A stretch of DNA of 35,301 nucleotides, taken from positions 1-35,301 of IMG/VR virus record IMGVR_UViG_3300031554_000004; one strand, 5' to 3'. The stretch is from a virus. Positions 4,444-18,571 of this stretch are shown here, one piece after another. Each line of letters opens with the position of its first letter. Positions within the stretch are counted from its first letter, which is position 1. The notes beneath the pieces are model-generated. The model saw only the letters and a program-made list of their open reading frames with translations, searched no databases and was not told the origin of the DNA. The position numbers and the translations under genes are program-made.

Positions 4444-6672
4444 ATGAGCGGATCGGAACTTGTTAGCGCGAAGGGGATCGCAAAGGCGCTGGGGAAGGCA
4501 AAGACAAGCATCCTTCGGCGGGCTGAAAAAGAAAAGTGGTCACACGCAAAGGGAGGGAACCGAACGAAACAATTTTATTTATCGCGGCTGCCGGCGGAGG
4601 TGCAAACGGCGCTGGCTGCCAGCGGGGCGATATCCATAGAGGCATTGCCGTTACTCTTGCCGGAGGCGGCGCTGGAACTGGTGAGACAGGCGACCGGCGA
4701 TGAAGTACAGATGCAGGGGTTTTTACCTATGGTTGCCAGCGGACGCAGAACGGAGAGCTGGTCCGCAGAGACCGCCCTCGATATGACCGTAATCCGGGAC
4801 GGCCGGGTGGCCAAATGGTCGCGGATTGTCCAGGAGGCTATGGGAACGCCTCCGGGATGGAAAAAGAGGGCCTGGATCGAGGACGTGGCCGGACGGCGTC
4901 ACACCACGGCGTCAACCATATACAGGCAGATTCAAAAATACGAGAAGAAGGGCCTGGCCGGGCTGAAGCACACAAAAGGGAACCGGCGGCAGCCGAAGGC
5001 ATGGACCCCGGAGGCCGTGGATTACTGGATCGGCCTGTGCATCAAGAAGGAACACCGGAAGATAGCAAAGGATGCCCTGTACGCCATCCTTGCCCAGGAG
5101 GCCGCAACCAGGGGCTGGAAGATAGGCAGCTACGAATCCGCCTTATGGTGGGGAAAAAAGAGGATCACACCGCAGCTCCTGGCGCTTCAGAGGGGCGGGG
5201 TTCGCGCCCTGGACAACACCCTGCCCCCGGTGGTCCGGAGCTATGCGGACCTCGGGCCTTTCGAGATAATTGTCGGCGACCAGCACCGCTTCGACTTCTG
5301 GGTAACGGACGAGGATACAGGCGAAGTCTTCCGGCCAGAGGGCTATTTCTGGCAGGACCTGCGGACCCGCGCCTTTTACGGCGCCGCCATTGCTAAAAAA
5401 TATGATTCTTACCTTATGGGCCTGGCGCTTCGCATGGGCCTGAAAATATTCGGGCCGTTCGGCTCGATCTACACGGACCACGGCAAACCGGAGGAATCCA
5501 ACTACATTATGGGGGTCATGAAAGATATGCGCGCCCTGGGCCTGGAGGCCAGGCAGACAGTGGACGCGCCTGTCGATCTGGACGAGGACCCGGAGGAGAT
5601 AAACCCGCTCGCCGCCATCGCCGGCACTCACCGGATGGCGATCGTACGCAACGCCAAGGCAAAGATGATCGAGGGGACATTCCGCAACCTTGAAGGCGTG
5701 CTGCGCGATCATTTCTTTGTGCCGGGTTATGTAAAGAAGCTCGGAGGCCTCCAGGAGGAAAACGAGGTCGACCAGAAGGATATCGAGCGCCTGGCCCGCG
5801 CAGGGAAACTCCTCACCTTCCGTGAGTTCGCCCTCACTATGCTCAAGGGATTGGATTATTACAACAGCGTCAAGCCGCACAGGGGCGTGCGGCGTGAATG
5901 GTCGTGGAGGCCGAAACCCAAAAAGGCCACGCCTATGGATTGCCTCAAACAATGCTGCGCGGAGGGCTGGAGGCCGGTAATGCTATCGGACGAGGCGATT
6001 GACCTGGTGTTTTTAGCCAGGGCAAACCGGATCGTGGACCGCGGCAGGATCACATTACACGGGGAGGTGTACGAAGATGACCGCCTGATCGGCCTGGACA
6101 AGCAGAGGGTGGAGGTGCGGTTCGATCCGCCTGATCCTGGATGGGTGCTGGTATTGAAGGACGGGGAATACCTGGCCCGGGCGCTTCCGGTTGAATACTC
6201 GAGCATGAAGGACCTTACCCTGGCGCAGAGAAAGATCGAGGAGAAGAGGCGGCAGCGCAAGGCATTTATTCTGGAATACCGGACGCTCACGTCCGCAATC
6301 CCGGACGTCAGGGAATATTCGCAAATACCCAGGATCGAGAAGGCGGCGGCGACGATAACAAAAGAGCAGCGGGCCAAGAGCAAAGAGCTGGCAGAGGTAA
6401 ACAGGCCGATGTCTGCCGAGGAGATAGAGGCGGATATCGCCCGCCTGGAGGCGGAGGAGGCACGGCGCAAGATCCGGCCAAAGAAAGTGCCGGAACGGCC
6501 ACGATATTTCAGGGCTGCCCTGGACCGATACAGATGGATCGTGAAATGCGAGCTCGCCGGCGGGGATCCGGACGAGGCGGACACGGCATTTAAGCTGGAT
6601 TATGAATCGCACATGGACGCCGGCCGGCGGGAACACTGGGCGGTCGTCCGGGAACTGGGAGAGATATCATGA
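4444..6672 (+). CDS. Mu-type DDE transposase A
   Basis: The 742-residue protein is a MuA-family transposase that would bind the phage ends and carry out strand transfer. Residues about 1-60 form a Mu-type winged helix (LVSAKGIAKALGKAKTSILR). Residues about 110-230 hold further helix-turn-helix DNA-binding domains. The RNase H-like core has the expected triad: D279 in IIVGDQHRFDF, D345 in IYTDHGKPEE and E410 in AKAKMIEGTFRNLEG; Mu has D269, D336, E392. A beta-barrel domain (about 540-600) and a basic helical C-terminus, which in Mu contacts the B protein, follow. Ribosome binding site GGAG precedes ATG 4444. The stop overlaps the start of the ATPase gene. Confidence 0.96.
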   Translation: MSGSELVSAKGIAKALGKAKTSILRRAEKEKWSHAKGGNRTKQFYLSRLPAEVQTALAASGAISIEALPLLLPEAALELVRQATGDEVQMQGFLPMVASGRRTESWSAETALDMTVIRDGRVAKWSRIVQEAMGTPPGWKKRAWIEDVAGRRHTTASTIYRQIQKYEKKGLAGLKHTKGNRRQPKAWTPEAVDYWIGLCIKKEHRKIAKDALYAILAQEAATRGWKIGSYESALWWGKKRITPQLLALQRGGVRALDNTLPPVVRSYADLGPFEIIVGDQHRFDFWVTDEDTGEVFRPEGYFWQDLRTRAFYGAAIAKKYDSYLMGLALRMGLKIFGPFGSIYTDHGKPEESNYIMGVMKDMRALGLEARQTVDAPVDLDEDPEEINPLAAIAGTHRMAIVRNAKAKMIEGTFRNLEGVLRDHFFVPGYVKKLGGLQEENEVDQKDIERLARAGKLLTFREFALTMLKGLDYYNSVKPHRGVRREWSWRPKPKKATPMDCLKQCCAEGWRPVMLSDEAIDLVFLARANRIVDRGRITLHGEVYEDDRLIGLDKQRVEVRFDPPDPGWVLVLKDGEYLARALPVEYSSMKDLTLAQRKIEEKRRQRKAFILEYRTLTSAIPDVREYSQIPRIEKAAATITKEQRAKSKELAEVNRPMSAEEIEADIARLEAEEARRKIRPKKVPERPRYFRAALDRYRWIVKCELAGGDPDEADTAFKLDYESHMDAGRREHWAVVRELGEIS

Positions 6673-10404: not shown

Positions 10405-11319
10405 ATGCCGACAAAAATCGAATGGTGTGAAGAATCCTGGAATCCCGTTACCGGTTGCTCACCGGTTTCGGAAGGCTGCGAGCACTGTTATGCTCGCCGT
10501 ATGGCCCAGCGCCTCAGAGGCCGGTACGGATATCCCCAGGATGATCCATTCAGGGTGACATTCCATCCTGATCGACTTAACAAGCCATTAAAATGGAAAA
10601 AGCCCCGGATGATCTTTGTGTGCAGCATGGGGGATCTTTGGCATAAAGACATTGATTGGCCGATAATAGATAAAATTTTTTGGTCAATGTGCGGAGCCCC
10701 GCAGCACACCTATCTAATCTTAACAAAGAGGATTGAGGCGGCATGGTACTATTTTCATTCTCCTATTTATAAACAGCCAAATCTTTCGAGAGCAACACTC
10801 CTTACAGATAACGTCTGGCTCGGGGTCACTGCCGAAAACCAACCACGGTTTGATGAACGCTGGTCTATCTTGGCTCAGATCCCTGCGGCGAAACGGTTTG
10901 TCAGCATAGAGCCGATGCTGGGGCCGGTGGATTTATCTGAATGGCTTTGGCAACAATGCACTGTTTGCTGGGGTCCAGGTGAAGATGATTGGGGTTATGA
11001 TGTTGAGCCACGAGAGGATGGCTTAGATTGGATTATCAGCGGTGGCGAATCCGGCCCCGGCGCGCGCCCCATGCATCCGGACTGGGTGCGATCGGTCAGG
11101 GATCAATGCCAGGAGGTGGAAGTACCGTTTTTCTTCAAGCAGTGGGGGGAGTGGAGCCCACATTTAAAACGGTTTGGGGGCGGTATATTCCTCAAACCAG
11201 ATGGAACAATGACCTGTCAAGGTGATTATTGGGATGGCCAAGCAGCAGCAATGAATCGTGTCGGTAAAAAAGCGGCCGGCCGTCTGCTTGATGGCCGGGA
11301 ATGGAATGAGAAACCTTAA
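10405..11319 (+). CDS. Phage Gp37/Gp68 family protein (DUF5131)
   Basis: The 304-residue protein matches the DUF5131 (Gp37/Gp68) family: KIEWCEESWNPVTGC, then C25 and C28 in EGCEHCYARRMA, RVTFHPDRLNKPLKWKKP, IFVCSMGDLWH, LILTKR, VWLGVTAENQ, FVSIEPMLGPV, WIISGGESGPGARPM and FFKQWGEW. The family has a radical-SAM-like barrel, and the Cys set C18-x6-C25-x2-C28 is the likely iron-sulfur or metal site. No reaction is established, as far as I know; it is common in phages and in restriction or repair islands. Ribosome binding site GGGAGG precedes ATG 10405. It is a free-standing accessory gene. Confidence 0.9.
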   Translation: MPTKIEWCEESWNPVTGCSPVSEGCEHCYARRMAQRLRGRYGYPQDDPFRVTFHPDRLNKPLKWKKPRMIFVCSMGDLWHKDIDWPIIDKIFWSMCGAPQHTYLILTKRIEAAWYYFHSPIYKQPNLSRATLLTDNVWLGVTAENQPRFDERWSILAQIPAAKRFVSIEPMLGPVDLSEWLWQQCTVCWGPGEDDWGYDVEPREDGLDWIISGGESGPGARPMHPDWVRSVRDQCQEVEVPFFFKQWGEWSPHLKRFGGGIFLKPDGTMTCQGDYWDGQAAAMNRVGKKAAGRLLDGREWNEKP

Positions 11320-11726: not shown

Positions 11727-12281
11727 ATGCAATTGATCTGTCCGAAATGCGGAAGCCGCTTTGATTTGGAACAGGCCGTCAGTGAATTGGAACAAGCGGA
11801 AACGCACGATATTGCAGCAAAATTCGGCGTACATTGGCGACTGGTCTATGAGTATTCGGAGTGTTTCAGACAAAGCGAGTTCGGCAATGTTTCATTAACG
11901 AAGCGCCTCAGAATTTTAAAGCATACCGCCCGGCTCCTGGAAATATTTACGTTTAGGTATAAGGGCAAGCAGTACCGCACGTCAAAGCCGGAGATAATCG
12001 GGGCCATGACCGACATCTGCAATATGCAGAAATGGGGCTTCATGAACCACGGTTATCTGTTTGCGATCCTTTCTAAGTCCGGGGAGCGGCTGAGCGCCGA
12101 GGGGCTGACCGCGGATGAAGAGGCGGAAAGAGAAACCCGCCGTCGCCAAGGCTATGGCGGGCAGGGGCGACCTGTCCACCGAAGCCTTGGCGAAGGTGGA
12201 AAGGAGGATATAGGGCTTGACGAGGCCCTTGAGAAGCATCCGGAGCTCAAGGATGCTTTGAATAAATTCGGAAAGGAGTAG
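11727..12281 (+). CDS. Zinc-ribbon protein with an in-frame palindromic element
   Basis: The 184-residue protein starts MQLICPKCGSRFDLEQAVSE; the CPKC pair suggests half of a zinc ribbon, though the second pair is not obvious. Residues 25-125 look helical with a possible helix-turn-helix (HDIAAKFGVHWRLVYEYSEC). Residues about 138-159 (RRRQGYGGQGRPVHRSLGEG) are read from a palindromic repeat at 12138-12201, with acidic flanks that look like the original protein. It is the last gene before the integron cassette and late leader, a place where late regulators often lie; a regulatory role is inferred only. Confidence 0.72.
   Translation: MQLICPKCGSRFDLEQAVSELEQAETHDIAAKFGVHWRLVYEYSECFRQSEFGNVSLTKRLRILKHTARLLEIFTFRYKGKQYRTSKPEIIGAMTDICNMQKWGFMNHGYLFAILSKSGERLSAEGLTADEEAERETRRRQGYGGQGRPVHRSLGEGGKEDIGLDEALEKHPELKDALNKFGKE
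12138..12201 (+). repeat. RPE-like palindromic element in frame
   Basis: TCGCCAAGGCT (12143-12153) and AGCCTTGGCGA (12183-12193) are an exact 11-bp inverted repeat inside a longer element that also holds CTATGGCGG and ACCTGTCCACC. A second, diverged copy lies in the opposite orientation between genes at 22523-22575. Here the element keeps the reading frame open and adds about 21 residues. Confidence 0.75.
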
Positions 12282-12309
12282 CTGGAAAATTTTCGAGGTA
12301 TTACCGCTG

Positions 12310-12620
12310 TTAGGTGACCTATGAAAAAAGCATTTGGATTTGAGCGAGAAGCTGAGTCTATATCACTTGATAAGGATAGGCGATTTTGTTTAGATCTCAT
12401 GGCATGGCTTTTGATGGATGGGCATGGCACAATGTACGATTATTATGAAGTCATGGCCGGGAGATTACCATGTCCTGCGCGGGATACCTGCCATCGATAT
12501 TTGAAGGCAAGGGTTGCTGGGAAGAAGTTTATATGGGAAGGACAAATGTCTTTCCGCTTTGCAAAATCACCTAACAAGAGCATCCATTCGACCTGCTCCG
12601 CAGGCGACTGATGCTAGGCG
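12310..12620 (+). mobile_element. Orphan integron gene cassette
   Basis: The 311-bp segment has the full anatomy of an integron cassette. The left boundary is G^TTAGGT (12309-12315, matches GTTRRRY). One gene begins 11 bp in. An attC lies at the 3' end, beginning with ACCTAAC at 12569-12575, the exact complement of GTTAGGT, as expected for the R'' and R' boxes of the same circular cassette. The right boundary is G^TTATGT at 12620/12621. No integrase or second cassette is seen in the window, so it most likely entered at a secondary G^TT site. Confidence 0.82.
12321..12611 (+). CDS. Integron cassette protein, function unknown
   Basis: The product has 96 residues and no recognised family. The first 75 look like a small mixed alpha/beta domain (CLDLMAWLLMDGHGTMYDYY, CPARDTCHRYLKARVAGKKF). 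The last 14 (PNKSIHSTCSAGD region) are read from the attC, whose TGA ends the frame. The start lies 11 bp from the cassette edge with AGGTGA as ribosome binding site, typical of cassette genes that use an outside promoter. Its codon use is more AT-rich than its neighbours. It should be transcribed with the early phage genes. Confidence 0.75.
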   Translation: MKKAFGFEREAESISLDKDRRFCLDLMAWLLMDGHGTMYDYYEVMAGRLPCPARDTCHRYLKARVAGKKFIWEGQMSFRFAKSPNKSIHSTCSAGD

Positions 12621-12626
12621 TTATGT
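12569..12626 (+). repeat. attC recombination site
   Basis: From outside in: R'' ACCTAAC (12569-12575); L'' AGCATC (12579-12584) pairing with L' GATGCT (12610-12615); TCG/CGA (12588-12590, 12605-12607) with an unpaired A at 12591; CCTGC/GCAGG around a TCC loop (12592-12604); and R' beginning at G12620. Size (58 bp), unpaired spacer, extrahelical base and boxes all fit attC. Confidence 0.85.
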
Positions 12627-12722
12627 GCTTGGTGGCTCCAACTGGGGAAGCAGGGTTCCTCGAAAGCTTTGCAGCAGCTGGAGGGCCTACTATGCCGGTT
12701 CGAATCCGGCCCAAGCACACCA
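12625..12722 (+). tRNA. tRNA-like gene, class II size, anticodon unclear
   Basis: The 98-nt sequence has an 8-bp acceptor stem (GTGCTTGG with CCAAGCAC), a discriminator A with encoded CCA, a perfect T arm (GCCGG, TTCGAAT loop, CCGGC at 12694-12710) and a D-arm-like GCT/AGC of 3 bp with a GG in its loop. Total length and the 8+5 acceptor/T geometry recall tRNA-Sec or Ser-type class II tRNAs. The anticodon region is poor. The best stem (GGGTT/AGCTT, three G-U pairs) gives loop CCTCGAA without U33; CTCGAAA would read CGA (Ser) but its stem does not pair; TTGCAGC on an AGCT/AGCT stem would read GCA (Cys) but leaves an overlong D region. It may be a decayed tRNA, an unusual tRNA or a tRNA mimic. 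Confidence 0.5.
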
Positions 12723-12747
12723 CATAATAAGCCGGCTAAAAAAGTGC

Positions 12748-12776
12748 TTGACATGTTACAGCAACGCCTGTAGCGT
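12748..12776 (+). promoter_or_regulatory. Promoter of the late leader
   Basis: TTGACA at 12748-12753 and TAGCGT at 12771-12776 are 17 bp apart. A TACAG/CTGTA inverted repeat (12757-12761, 12768-12772) lies between them, which could be an activator or repressor site as in Mu middle and late promoters. The weak -10 suggests help from a factor. Confidence 0.5.
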
Positions 12777-12782
12777 GTAAAA

Positions 12783-12945
12783 TACAATTAAAACGTTATC
12801 CGCTGCAGAACAGAGTGGCGGATCAGGGGTTGACGGAGCCTGATCCAGAGTCCCGTCCCGCTGGAAGCGGGATCGTGGCATAACGGCTAACCAAAGCCCG
12901 GCGATTCGATTTTCAATCGAAGATTGAAGTGTCGGGCTTTTTTTT
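12783..12945 (+). ncRNA. Structured leader RNA ahead of the lysis genes
   Basis: The interval from the expected start to the terminator is about 165 nt with no gene. It can form ATCCGC/GCGGAT (12798-12803, 12818-12823), GATCAGG/CCTGATC (12821-12827, 12839-12845), TCCCGCT/AGCGGGA (12856-12862, 12866-12872) and the terminator hairpin. The first two share 12821-12823 and exclude each other, so the RNA may switch. Layout and length resemble the lambda pR'-6S RNA-tR' late leader. Whether it is an attenuator, antitermination site or free small RNA is not known. Confidence 0.5.
12893..12945 (+). terminator. Rho-independent terminator before the lysis genes
   Basis: AAAGCCCGGC (12893-12902) pairs with GTCGGGCTTT (12931-12940) over 10 bp with one G-U, and eight T's run from 12938 to 12945. 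The loop carries its own 7-bp hairpin, TTCGATT/AATCGAA at 12905-12921, made of AATTG-type repeat sequence. Confidence 0.88.
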
Positions 12946-12957
12946 GAGGCGAATGAG

Positions 12958-13189: not shown

Positions 13190-13639
13190 ATGATTACATG
13201 GAAGCAGATCCGTCATTTCGTCGCTAAGGAATTTGATGATTCTCTGCACCCCGGGAGCGGCGAAGAGATCGACATGACCCTTGTCTTGAACCTTGACTAT
13301 CTATGGGAAAGGGTTGCCACCATATCCGGCAAGAAGCCTGCCATTATCATCACTCAAGCGGTGGATCTCTATGGCGAGCATGGACATGCAGACAATAGTT
13401 ATCATCTGCAAAAACAAGGATGTCAGGCCGCCGATTTCATCATTCTCACCGGCCTTGACTCCAGGATACAATACCAGCTGGTCGAACGTCAGGGCTTTGC
13501 CGGCATAGGGATATATTACGATTGGCATTATAAAGGCGAGCCTGTCTCGATCGGATTCCATACAGACCTTCGTCCGCATCACCTGATCCAGAGATGGAAG
13601 CGGGTGAACGGCGAATATTTTTATCTGTTAGGGAAGTAA
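13190..13639 (+). CDS. Endolysin, M15-type peptidase
   Basis: The 149-residue protein resembles M15 zinc peptidases that cut peptide cross-links of the cell wall. The family's SxH...GxxAxD motif appears as SYHLQKQGCQAADF, with three extra residues compared with the usual spacing, and the second zinc histidine appears in IGFHTDLRP. The intervening GIGIYYDWH is the usual strand before it. The N-terminal part (KQIRHFVAKEF) is typical of phage enzymes of this type. No signal peptide is present, so it needs the holin encoded next. ATG 13190 has GGGGAG upstream. Confidence 0.8.
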   Translation: MITWKQIRHFVAKEFDDSLHPGSGEEIDMTLVLNLDYLWERVATISGKKPAIIITQAVDLYGEHGHADNSYHLQKQGCQAADFIILTGLDSRIQYQLVERQGFAGIGIYYDWHYKGEPVSIGFHTDLRPHHLIQRWKRVNGEYFYLLGK

Positions 13640-13666: not shown

Positions 13667-14203
13667 ATGGGCGCATTCAGTAAGATAGCGGACGGAATCA
13701 AGGCGATTGCTCCTACAGTCGCGAATCTTATTGTACCTGGCTCAGGGACTCTTTTGGGAGGGCTCATGAGGGCGGTAACAGGGGACAGCACGTCGGACAT
13801 CGAAGCTGTGGCCGCGAAAATAGAGGCGGACCCGAAACTTTATGTGGAGCTGCAAAAAATGGCGATTGAACGGGAGGTGAGCCTGGCACAGATCGAGGCC
13901 GCCAAACTCGCAACCGTGAACGCCACCATGCAGGCGGAAGCGAAAAGCGACCGGTGGCCGCAGTACTCCTGGAGGCCGTTTAACGGTTTTGCCTACCCTC
14001 TGGCGGTAATTCTTATCTATTTCCTCCTTCCTCTGCTCAGCAAGCCGGTGCCGGACGTGCCTCAGTGGATCTGGGTGGGCTGGCTTTCCATCCTGGGCGT
14101 GGCCGTGTGGGACAGAGGAAAAGAGAAAAGGACAAAGGCGGGAGAGCATAAGACCGGTTTGATCGAGGGAGCTATCAAGGCAATTCAGGGAGGCAAATCA
14201 TGA
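13667..14203 (+). CDS. Holin, 3TM type
   Basis: The 178-residue product has features of the GTA_holin_3TM family (PF11351): an N-terminal hydrophobic Gly-rich segment (VANLIVPGSGTLLGGLMRAV), a central helical region with DPKLYVELQKMAIERE, then SWRPFNGFAYPLAVILIYFL and WIWVGWLSILGVAVWDRGKE. Two clear transmembrane helices (about 105-124 and 132-147) plus the weaker first segment make up the three membrane spans. It would open the inner membrane to the endolysin encoded just before. Strong ribosome binding site AAAGGAGG. Confidence 0.88.
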   Translation: MGAFSKIADGIKAIAPTVANLIVPGSGTLLGGLMRAVTGDSTSDIEAVAAKIEADPKLYVELQKMAIEREVSLAQIEAAKLATVNATMQAEAKSDRWPQYSWRPFNGFAYPLAVILIYFLLPLLSKPVPDVPQWIWVGWLSILGVAVWDRGKEKRTKAGEHKTGLIEGAIKAIQGGKS

Positions 14204-15318: not shown

Positions 15319-16922
15319 TGACTGACCGGCCCGGAGATATCGAGCGCATATTAAGCTGGGATGAATTGCCTCCCAGCGTGCGGGAGATCCCGGAGGGATA
15401 TGATCCCCTGGCTGAAGGGGTGCTCATGAAACACCAGGCCGGGTGGATCAAACAGATTCACGAGTACCCCCTCAATATCGCCGAAAAGGGGCGGCGCACG
15501 GGCATCACCTTTGCCACCGCCCTGGATGATACGATCACCGCCTCGAGTAAAAAGAGCGCGGGCGGGGATAACGTCTATTACATCGGCGACACCAGGGAAA
15601 AAGGTCTCGAGTATATAGGCTACTGCGCCCACATGGCCAGAGTCATGGCGGCGGCTATGGCGGACGGATGGCAGGGAATAGAGGTATTTCTGTTCGAGGA
15701 CCAGCAGCCGGACGGATCATCAAAACATATTACCAGCTATCGGATCAGGTTCGCATCGGGTTTTCAGGAAGTGGCGTTATCGTCCAGGCCGGCGAGCATC
15801 AGGGGACTGCAGGGCAAGGTCAACATAGACGAGGCGGCGTTTCATCTTAATGTGCAGGCCGTGATCGATTCCACCCTGGCCCTTATTATATGGGGCGGGG
15901 ATATCCGCATCATAAGCACGCACAACGGCGACAAGAACCCGTTTAACCAGCTGATCCACGACACGAGGGCGGGACTGTTCGCGTTTAAGATATTCAGGGT
16001 GACATTCGATGACGCCGTTAAAAACGGGCTGTACGAGCGGGTCTGCATGGTCAAGGGATGGACCCCGACGCCCGAAGGGAAAAAGGAATGGTACCAGCGG
16101 GTGCGCGGGGCATACGGGGCCAACAAGGCGGCCATGAAAGAGGAGCTGGACGCTATCCCCAGGGAAGGATCGGGGGTGGCCATCCCCGGTATCTTGATCG
16201 AGGCATGCATGAAAGAAGCCAGGCCGATCATACGCCTGGCCCTGGACAATAATTTCGCCCTCAAGGGGGAGGAGTACAGAAAATCATGGTGTGACGAGTG
16301 GATCCGGATCCAACTCGCGCCTCTCATGAAAGGGCTGGACAAAACGCTCGATCACGTTTTCGGGCAGGACTTTGCGCGGTACGGCAATTTTTCCGTTATC
16401 GGCCCCCTGGAGATCTTGAAAAACCTGGTGCGGAAATGTCCCTTTCTCGTGGAGATGCACAATGTGCCGTCGCGTCAACAGGAGCAAATACTCTGGTACA
16501 TGATCGGCAGCTTCCCGAAATTCCGGGGCGGTGCGATGGATGCGACCGGGCCGGGGCTGACGCTTGCGGAATACACGGCGGACAAATACGGCCGGCCGCT
16601 GATCGAGGAGATAACCCTGAATGACGCCTGGTACAGGGAGCATATGGTGCCCTTCCAGGACGCCTTCGAAGACCAGACCATCGACCTGCCGCGCGACACC
16701 GACATAAAAAACGACCTCCGGGCGCTCGAGCTGATCGACGGCATTATCAAGCTGCCCAGGCTGACGGTCAGCGATACAAAAAACCCGGAGTTCATGCGGC
16801 ACGGAGACGCGGCGATCGCGCTCGCACTGGGACACTATAAATCCATAAACATGAGTGGCGGGCCTGTGGAATACAAAACCATATCAAAGCGCCGGTTCGC
16901 CGGCGTCAAGGGGACGTGGTGA
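15318..16922 (+). CDS. Terminase large subunit, Mu gp28-like
   Basis: The 534-residue motor protein packages DNA by headful. The ATPase half has a Walker-A-like KGRRTGIT (57-64) and Walker B NIDEAAF (169-175), with a coupling IISTHNG segment (198-204). The nuclease half has likely metal-binding D351 in GQDFARYGN, D408 in GAMDATGPG and D497 in RHGDAAIALALG. The length is usual for the family (Mu gp28 is about 550). The stop overlaps the portal start. Confidence 0.93.
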   Translation: MTDRPGDIERILSWDELPPSVREIPEGYDPLAEGVLMKHQAGWIKQIHEYPLNIAEKGRRTGITFATALDDTITASSKKSAGGDNVYYIGDTREKGLEYIGYCAHMARVMAAAMADGWQGIEVFLFEDQQPDGSSKHITSYRIRFASGFQEVALSSRPASIRGLQGKVNIDEAAFHLNVQAVIDSTLALIIWGGDIRIISTHNGDKNPFNQLIHDTRAGLFAFKIFRVTFDDAVKNGLYERVCMVKGWTPTPEGKKEWYQRVRGAYGANKAAMKEELDAIPREGSGVAIPGILIEACMKEARPIIRLALDNNFALKGEEYRKSWCDEWIRIQLAPLMKGLDKTLDHVFGQDFARYGNFSVIGPLEILKNLVRKCPFLVEMHNVPSRQQEQILWYMIGSFPKFRGGAMDATGPGLTLAEYTADKYGRPLIEEITLNDAWYREHMVPFQDAFEDQTIDLPRDTDIKNDLRALELIDGIIKLPRLTVSDTKNPEFMRHGDAAIALALGHYKSINMSGGPVEYKTISKRRFAGVKGTW

Positions 16923-18571
16923 TGATACTGGATCAGTTCGGCCGGGAAATCAAAATGACCAAGGCACCGGAGAGGCGGCCCCTGGCAGCGGCGCCGGTCC
17001 TGGACTCGTGGCGGGAGTACGTGAGCGCGGGCCTGACCCCGCAGCGGCTCACCACCCTGCTCAAGGAGGCCGATTCCGGCAACGTGCAGAGACAGGCCGA
17101 GCTCTTCGACCAGATGGAAGAAAAAGACGCCCACCTCCTGGGGGAGGCGGAGAAGCGGAGAAACGCCATACTGGACGTGGAGTTCCGGGTTTCGCCGGCC
17201 ACAGAAGACAGCCGCGACGTGAAGGTTGCGGAGTTTGTACAGGAATATTTCGACAATTTCACGGACTGGGACGATACCCTGGTCTCGCTCCAGGACAGCG
17301 TGGGCAAGGGTTTCTCTGCCCTGGAGATCCACTGGGATACCTCCTCCGGCCAGGCCATGCCGACCGACCTGGAATTTATCGAGCAGAAACGATTTTTGTT
17401 CACCGACGCGACCGGGTACCTGCGCAAATACCCCAGGCTGATCTCGGACGACAACATGATGGGCGAGGAGATCCCGGCCTGGAAGATCCTCTTCCACCGC
17501 TACGGGGGCAAGGCAGGCCACGCGGCGAGGTCCGGGATTTACCGGGTATGCGCATGGATGTTTCTTTTCAGAAATTATTCCCTCAAGGACTGGATGGCAT
17601 TTCTGGAGGTGTTCGGGATGCCCCTGAGGCTGGGACATTATGACCCCGGCGCGGGCCCGGAAGACAAGGACGCCCTGATCACGGCCATACAATCCCTGGG
17701 CTCGGACGCGGCCGGGATCATTTCCAAAAACACGGAGATCGAATTTGTCGAGGCGGTCAAGCACGGGGCCAGGGGGGACAACCCGTACGAGACGATGGCC
17801 GCTTTCTGCGCCAAGGAGATATCCAAGGCCCTGCTGGGCCAGACCCTGACCGCGGACGTGGGCGACGTGGGCTCCTATGCGGCAGCCAGGACCCACAACG
17901 AGGTGCGGATCGACCTGGCCAAGGCGGACACGCGGACCTCGGCCGCCACGGTGCGGTACCAGCTTATACGGCCGATGGTGGGATTCAACTTCGGATGGGA
18001 CACGCCGGTGCCCGGGTACGCCGCGATCTGGAACGAGCGGGAGGACCTCAAGAGCCTGAGCGAGGTATACAAAAACGTGATCGGGTTCGGCCAGCCGGTT
18101 TCCGCCGAGCACGTGAGCGAGCGGTTCGGGATCCCCCTGCCGGAGAAAGAACAGACGATTTTGCAGCCCGTGACGCCCGGCCAGATGGCCATGAAGCGGA
18201 CAAACCCCGCCCAGTCTGCGAAAACAGGGGCAAAGGCGTCTAATCATACGCGCCTCACAGCAAAAGACGATCCTGGGCCTGTTTTTGACGCGGAGCAGCA
18301 GGAACTGGAGGAGCTCGCGGACGACTCCCTGACTCTCGCGGCCGAGGCATGGAAAGGGATAGACGGCCCGGTCCGGAAACTGATCGAATCCAGCTCGAGC
18401 CTGGAGGAATTGCGCGACCGGATATTTGACGTGTACGCGGATCTGGACCCGGCGGATTTGGAAATATTGGTACGCGACGCCCTGGTTACCGCGGCACTGG
18501 CAGGCGCGGCGGATGCGGCAAAACCCAGAAATAAGAGGCCACAAAGACACCAAGACACAAAGTCTTTGTAG
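16922..18571 (+). CDS. Portal protein, Mu gp29-like (DUF935)
   Basis: The 549-residue protein matches the DUF935 portal family: LDQFGREI at the start, GLTPQRLTTLLKEADSGNVQ, DQMEEKDAHLLGEAEKRRNA, SVGKGFSALEIHW, GMPLRLGHYDPGAGPEDKDA and ISKALLGQTLTADVGDVGSY. It forms the ring through which DNA enters and leaves the head. ATG 16922 overlaps the terminase stop and has AAGGGG upstream, so it is preferred to GTG 16916. The last residues (about KRPQRHQDTKSL) and the stop codon are supplied by a CACNAAG repeat, so the original C-terminus has been replaced or extended. Confidence 0.93.
   Translation: MILDQFGREIKMTKAPERRPLAAAPVLDSWREYVSAGLTPQRLTTLLKEADSGNVQRQAELFDQMEEKDAHLLGEAEKRRNAILDVEFRVSPATEDSRDVKVAEFVQEYFDNFTDWDDTLVSLQDSVGKGFSALEIHWDTSSGQAMPTDLEFIEQKRFLFTDATGYLRKYPRLISDDNMMGEEIPAWKILFHRYGGKAGHAARSGIYRVCAWMFLFRNYSLKDWMAFLEVFGMPLRLGHYDPGAGPEDKDALITAIQSLGSDAAGIISKNTEIEFVEAVKHGARGDNPYETMAAFCAKEISKALLGQTLTADVGDVGSYAAARTHNEVRIDLAKADTRTSAATVRYQLIRPMVGFNFGWDTPVPGYAAIWNEREDLKSLSEVYKNVIGFGQPVSAEHVSERFGIPLPEKEQTILQPVTPGQMAMKRTNPAQSAKTGAKASNHTRLTAKDDPGPVFDAEQQELEELADDSLTLAAEAWKGIDGPVRKLIESSSSLEELRDRIFDVYADLDPADLEILVRDALVTAALAGAADAAKPRNKRPQRHQDTKSL

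Follow-up and report, generated by a model that had tools for sequence, protein, structure and literature searches.

Introduction

Integrons and CALINs have been described in 21 phages, and IntI1 activity has been shown for the attC sites of virulent phages (Qi et al. 2023, PMC9892861). DNA methyltransferases are among the genes reported from phage cassettes (PMC9892861). By what route cassettes get from the chromosomal integron of one bacterium to that of another is still an unsettled matter. Among the open-access papers searched, none described a cassette site in Mu-like phages that is both recurrent and integrase-less.

We analysed a 35,301-base IMG/VR contig (record IMGVR_UViG_3300031554_000004, positions 1 to 35,301; the window), in which an initial annotation, made by a model from the sequence alone, had described an orphan integron gene cassette inside a Mu-like phage. 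That the cassette is an orphan was not borne out: other phage contigs have cassettes of their own, as many as six in one array, at the corresponding site. We consider it probable that these loci represent an integrase-less integron platform of Mu-like phages, located at the junction of early and late genes, on which a host IntI acts in trans and which is transcribed by phage read-through.

An integron gene cassette in the window

As read from the sequence, the linear form of the 311-bp cassette opens at ^TTAGGTG and closes with the G of the R' box (Table 1). The start box G^TTAGGTG occupies positions 12309-12316, where the cassette opens with G^TTAGGTGA. The R'' box CACCTAAC has its last base at 12575, and the R' box reads GTTATGT (12620-12626). 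The initial annotation had delimited this unit by its G^TT start and complementary R'' box and had placed one gene 11 bp inside it; the boundaries are as described, and the complement between start box and R'' is 9 nt long (GTTAGGTGA). The 96-aa ORF begins 11 nt past the cut on the + strand, in array direction, a leader so short that the ORF is probably promoterless. The unit combines attC boxes and a bottom-strand hairpin with a start/R'' complement and a single ORF in array direction. Judged from its sequence, it is a genuine integron gene cassette. The window holds a single attC and falls outside the definition of a CALIN (at least two attCs without intI), into which the arrays of L007/L005, L012, L013 and L016 (described below) fall. 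A complete integron has intI adjoining attI, an arrangement not seen in the 35,301-bp record, which is possibly incomplete.

Table 1. Features of the cassette locus and its surroundings (window coordinates).
Feature	Position	Strand	Evidence
Mu-type transposase (MuA)	4444..6672	+	PF09299, 45.5 bits
Conserved 184-aa phage gene, CxxC zinc-finger-like N-terminus	11727..12281	+	Ends just before docking site; weak match to PHROG 2161 (function unknown)
attI-like docking sequence GGAAAATTTTCGAGGTATTACCGCT^G	12284..12309	+	Motif conservation directly left of cassette
Integron gene cassette	12310..12620	+	Matched ends and attC
Cassette ORF, 96 aa	12321..12611	+	ORF list; stop inside attC
attC	12569..12626 (R'' 12569-12575, R' 12620-12626)	- (structured strand)	Covariance model 28.8 bits; fold z -3.7; likeness to attC of L016 cassette 2
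Possible second cassette, G^TTATGTG...CACATAA, truncated attC, encloses tRNA-like element	12620..12727	+	7-nt complement TTATGTG/CACATAA
tRNA-like gene, encoded CCA, 98 nt	12625..12722	+	ARAGORN tRNA-Arg(tcg)
Promoter-like TTGACA, four-way-junction RNA and terminator	12750..12946	+	Conserved in L002, L007, L038
Mu-type portal (Portal_Mu)	16916..18571	+	PF06074, 321.7 bits

The bottom strand of the attC folds as DNA at -13.4 kcal/mol, with 0 shuffles as good (z -3.7), into R and L arms with the extrahelical bases that had been claimed for it. We built a covariance model from 13 attC sites of class 1 integrons on annotated plasmids, aligned as bottom strands with the textbook pairing assigned by hand. 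A covariance-model check of this kind had been proposed in the initial annotation. With filters off, the model picked out the bottom strand of window positions 12570-12626, scoring 28.8 bits (E 3.8e-5), with nothing above 10 bits elsewhere in the window; E-values from such short calibrations are rough, and the bit-score gap is the firmer figure. Because the model was built without any phage sequence, its match identifies the window site as an attC. The same model matched the arrays of L001, L012, L013 and L016, also on the bottom strand. All matches up to E 10 in 196 kb fall at the window site or inside an array; the single one on the top strand echoes a site of an array. Several of the sites within arrays scored below E 0.01 only weakly or were missed. 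The model also gave matches in M16-3, a Shewanella phage whose integron has been published.

A second model, derived from 12 phage attCs, recovered both left-out attCs of L013 and 2 sites in the M16-3 integron region, and nothing else new. In the alignment of the phage attCs 84.8% of cells pair, and no slid control exceeded 50.5%. Covariation scored 0.311 versus 0.167 ± 0.025 in shuffles (0/500 reach it), for a structure drawn from one row, a choice that somewhat favours that structure. There are 17 double-changed cells, all in the L''/L' stem. By BLAST, the window attC is 93% identical over 42 bp to the attC of the second L016 cassette. An Rfam search gave no attC match, only a sub-threshold tRNA-Sec and chance-level matches.

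The protein predicted from the window cassette had no match in Pfam, PHROGs or PADLOC and no tblastn match in phages or plasmids, and a pattern scan of IMG/VR returned nothing. Its AlphaFold model (pLDDT 54) was too poor for a structure search.

The cassette lies between early and head genes of a Mu-like phage

The assignment to a Mu-like transposable phage was borne out by a MuA transposase and a Mu portal, both over cut-off (Table 1), and by an AAA ATPase (PF13401) directly after the transposase, the position of MuB. With the early genes on one side and the head genes on the other, the cassette has the same orientation as both. The conserved gene to its left encodes a 184-aa protein (AlphaFold pLDDT 56, too poor for a structure search) that is 72-76% identical in L001, L002, L005 and L007. 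These four contigs have parts of the window neighbourhood, and the transposase is 91% identical in L001 and L002. L012 and L013 are more distant relatives (64%), in which a 226-aa gene separates the array from the 184-aa gene. For L016, a prophage-like contig, no other resemblance was noted.

Two further genes of the neighbourhood were observed. Window positions 10405-11316 encode a DUF5131 protein (PF07505, 308.8 bits), 71% identical in L005 and L007, which matches the PADLOC candidate models PDC-M41B and PDC-M30B. A small zinc-finger protein, which we take to resemble a Com-type regulator of Mu, is encoded after the 184-aa gene in L001 (9031-9216) and L003 (near 13695-13905), and the L001 protein is matched by a PHROG 1305 DNA-binding protein. 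In L001 a cassette separates the two genes; in L003 nothing lies between them.

Different cassettes occupy the corresponding site of other phage contigs

At the corresponding place L001 has one cassette, other than that of the window, and L007 and L005 have one identical two-cassette array. L012 has two cassettes, and L013 has two and a third with a truncated attC. L016 has six cassettes in a row, followed by a phage-type integrase with PF14659. L012, L013 and L016 were returned by a scan of IMG/VR with the sequence left of the window cassette, L016 being new there. No cassette was present at this place in L002, L003 or L038. Since L005 and L007 come from different metagenomes and hold an identical array, assembly chimaeras are unlikely.

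The initial annotation had judged matched cassette ends hard to get by chance, and cassettes elsewhere at the corresponding locus have matched ends of their own, which lowers the odds of chance further. Over 16 cassettes, the start and the cassette's own R'' are complementary over a mean run of 7.0 nt versus 2.8 nt in mismatched pairs. Not one of 100,000 permutations of the matching reached the observed mean (p < 1e-5), which is itself lowered by the third cassettes of L016 and L013, scored out of register in this test.

The relatives do not carry the same gene, as they would all have had to do under a refuting condition set in the initial annotation. A BLAST comparison among cassettes found attC tails of ∼40-50 bp in common and no common bodies, except for L005 and L007, which share one array. 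These comparisons are best explained by a quicker turnover of cassettes than of the phage genes that flank them. Cassette ORFs range from 43 to 146 aa. The second cassette of L013 encodes a Dam-type DNA methyltransferase (31.8 bits, cut-off 28.1), in line with the phage cassettes already published (PMC9892861).

In the first cassettes of L012 (10162) and L016 (12479) the start box GTTAGGAGGT, also given as GTTAGGAGG(T), contains a Shine-Dalgarno-like AGGAGG. Because this hexamer lies within the start box, the recombination box possibly aids translation, and it may double as the Shine-Dalgarno sequence of the cassette ORF. The L016 array also contains GTCAGG twice, at the junction of cassettes 5 and 6 (13536-13560) and after cassette 6 (13740-13755), possibly the original right flank duplicated around a late insertion.

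Right end of the arrays and right flank

The last array units of L013 (8492-8655) and L007 (8671-9534) keep the R'' box entirely or by half and have lost the remaining attC. We rejected the L007 unit, the third in its array, as a cassette: it has a near-match R'' alone (CTGCTAAC versus GTTAACAG) and no attC match. These two units suggest that DNA has been lost from the platform's right end.

To the right of the window cassette lies a tRNA-like element whose 5' end falls within the R' box of the attC, a feature absent from the initial annotation, as were the cassette-bearing relatives and the apparently non-arbitrary insertion site. The tRNA-like element has an odd variable region, and its best Rfam match is tRNA-Sec (26.8 bits against a gathering score of 47, hence sub-threshold). 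ARAGORN found no such tRNA-like gene in L001-L013, and blastn found none in the phage and plasmid collections. Because CACATAA, the complement of TTATGTG, comes after it, the element is possibly a second cassette whose attC has been deleted, and a truncated last cassette is seen in L013 too. The sequence 'ATAA..CCG(G)CTAAAAAA' right of the window cassette also resembles the flank of L002 and L007. From these sequences, it is about equally likely that 12620-12727 is a second cassette and that ATAA...CCG is ancestral flank.

The right boundary of the cassette site is formed by a promoter-like sequence, a structured RNA and a terminator, with counterparts at 11090-11292 in L002, 9545-9752 in L007 and 6110-6290 in L038. 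The four-way-junction RNA is closed by CGTTAT/ATAACG and contains the invariant GGATCAGGGGT(T/A)GACGGAG. Positions 12793-12946 fold at -67.7 kcal/mol (z -5.0). Rfam returned no family over threshold for this RNA.

A common sequence precedes the first cassette

Directly left of all arrays we found a common sequence of 25-28 nt, GGAAAATTTTCNANGTATNNNNGCT^GTT (also written GGAAAATTTTCNANGTATNNNNG(C/T)TGTT), which precedes the first cassette in the window, L012, L013 and L016 and is degenerate in L001 and L007. Its core, TTCNAN(A/G)TATN2-5(G/A)(C/T)TGTT, occurs once per cassette-bearing record, at the first cassette, and was not found in L002, L003, L004 or L038. Over the 28 nt before the first G^TT, the window, L012/L013 and L016 are 18-21/28 identical (P 4.5e-5 to 5e-6 versus random pairs), with the highest identity between the window and L016 (21/28, P 5e-6). 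L001 is 15-16/28 identical. The L007 sequence has one base fewer and does not exceed chance in this comparison, which allowed no gaps. The motif was seen in three upstream gene contexts that differ from one another. At 6/6 cassette-bearing loci the sequence lies where an attI would, directly left of the first cassette and with the GTT cleavage point. Judged by position and conservation, it looks like a phage-borne attI-like site. Because different cassettes at the corresponding site follow the same 25-28 nt sequence, we infer a dedicated attI-like site and not an arbitrary GTT.

A comparison with an empty site had been proposed at the outset. Cassette-less relatives do exist (L002, L003 and L038), and all three are without the motif; the exact motif without a cassette was not found. 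L002 was considered as an empty pre-insertion site and rejected: its motif is missing as well, which is absence and not a clean pre-insertion state.

A piece of a host's chromosomal integron, attI and first cassettes together, could have been captured passively by illegitimate recombination or mis-excision, with no movement by IntI since then. Captured integron fragments of such a kind have been described (Qi et al. 2023, PMC9892861), the truncated-attC last cassettes (the third of L013, possibly the third of L007 and the second of the window) point to deletions that shape the right end, and the entire platform is missing from L002 and L038. We regard passive capture as unlikely, as the window, L001 and L007, and also L012 and L013, retain the platform in place and have no cassette body in common. 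One capture would have left shared cassettes, and separate captures at the same place, with the left motif each time, are hard to expect.

The initial annotation had attributed the insertion to IntI acting at a secondary G^TT. The choice of IntI stands as the most likely one, in trans; the secondary site does not, given that the attI-like sequence recurs. Both the use of secondary sites by IntI (Recchia 1994, as cited in PMC9892861) and its off-target activity (PMC10127599) have been described, and the weak motif in L001 and L007 would fit a chance GTT. Yet one locus is used recurrently, and the 25-28 nt are conserved across contexts and absent from cassette-less records, so that insertion without a dedicated site appears very improbable.

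No integron integrase found on cassette-bearing records

In keeping with the claim that the window has no integrase, neither PF00589 nor TIGR02249 matched the window record. PF00589 was without a match in nine of ten records searched, including the 35-kb window record and the 39-kb L012 record, and its one match was in L003, which has no cassette at this place. TIGR02249 had no match in the window, L005, L007, L012, L013 or L016. Most records are fragments and these results cover the recorded sequence; the L016 contig ends inside its phage-type integrase. The least probable account is that the phages encode a divergent cassette recombinase of their own that was missed in partly incomplete records, for which the phage-type tyrosine recombinases of L003 and L016 might speak, but the two long records are without a PF00589 match and the L016 enzyme has the phage-type N-terminal domain PF14659, which the window family lacks.

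Since these searches turned up no integron integrase in any cassette-bearing record, an IntI supplied by the host is the most likely agent. A host search with the 184-aa gene against the genome collection gave 0 confirmed matches, and one strict, exact attC pattern had 0 matches in ∼85,000 genomes.

Discussion

In the mechanism that we propose for an integrase-less platform served in trans, circular cassettes would be received, in the form of single-stranded, folded attC bottom strands, by a short attI-like sequence located where the early operon ends. An integron integrase, coming in trans from the host or from another element inside it, would cut at G^TT. The cassettes run in the direction of the early operon, their short leaders leave no room for a promoter, and their translation is probably from transcripts that read through from the phage. 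Since the cassettes appear to turn over faster than the flanking phage genes, each phage would sample the cassette pool of its host population, and could bring cassettes to new hosts. We give an even chance to a wider proposal, that phages of unrelated kinds have in common a small and portable attI-like docking site without an integrase, that the IntI of each infected host can load or swap the cassettes, and that phages serve both as shuttles and as evolving reservoirs.

A family of transposable phages whose docking site is fixed and whose cassettes change fast would provide a direct route for cassette transfer. It would also be a way for phages to gain counter-defence genes, such as the Dam-like methyltransferase of L013.

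The phage arrays resemble those of class 1 integrons in attC architecture, G^TT boundaries, matched R'' and start boxes and a bottom-strand site. They differ in that no intI adjoins them, no resistance cargo was seen and the ORFs are shorter (43-146 aa). The Shewanella prophage M16-3 (MZ568829) contains a complete integron and a CALIN, each with a Shewanella-type attI (PMC9892861), and likewise presents an attI-type site followed by cassettes within a prophage. M16-3 is a P2-like (Peduoviridae) inactive prophage with its own IntI, whereas the window family is Mu-like and no IntI was found in it. Close as well are the CALINs and integrons in phages of Qi et al. 2023 (PMC9892861), with which the present loci share integrase-less attC arrays in phages, small cargo and orphan DNA methyltransferases. 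Those were single cases in different phages; here one site, in related and apparently unrelated phages, holds different cassettes next to a common left motif, in a Mu-like setting. Integron parts in phages were already known from that study, and what the present loci add is a recurrent platform with apparently fast cassette turnover.
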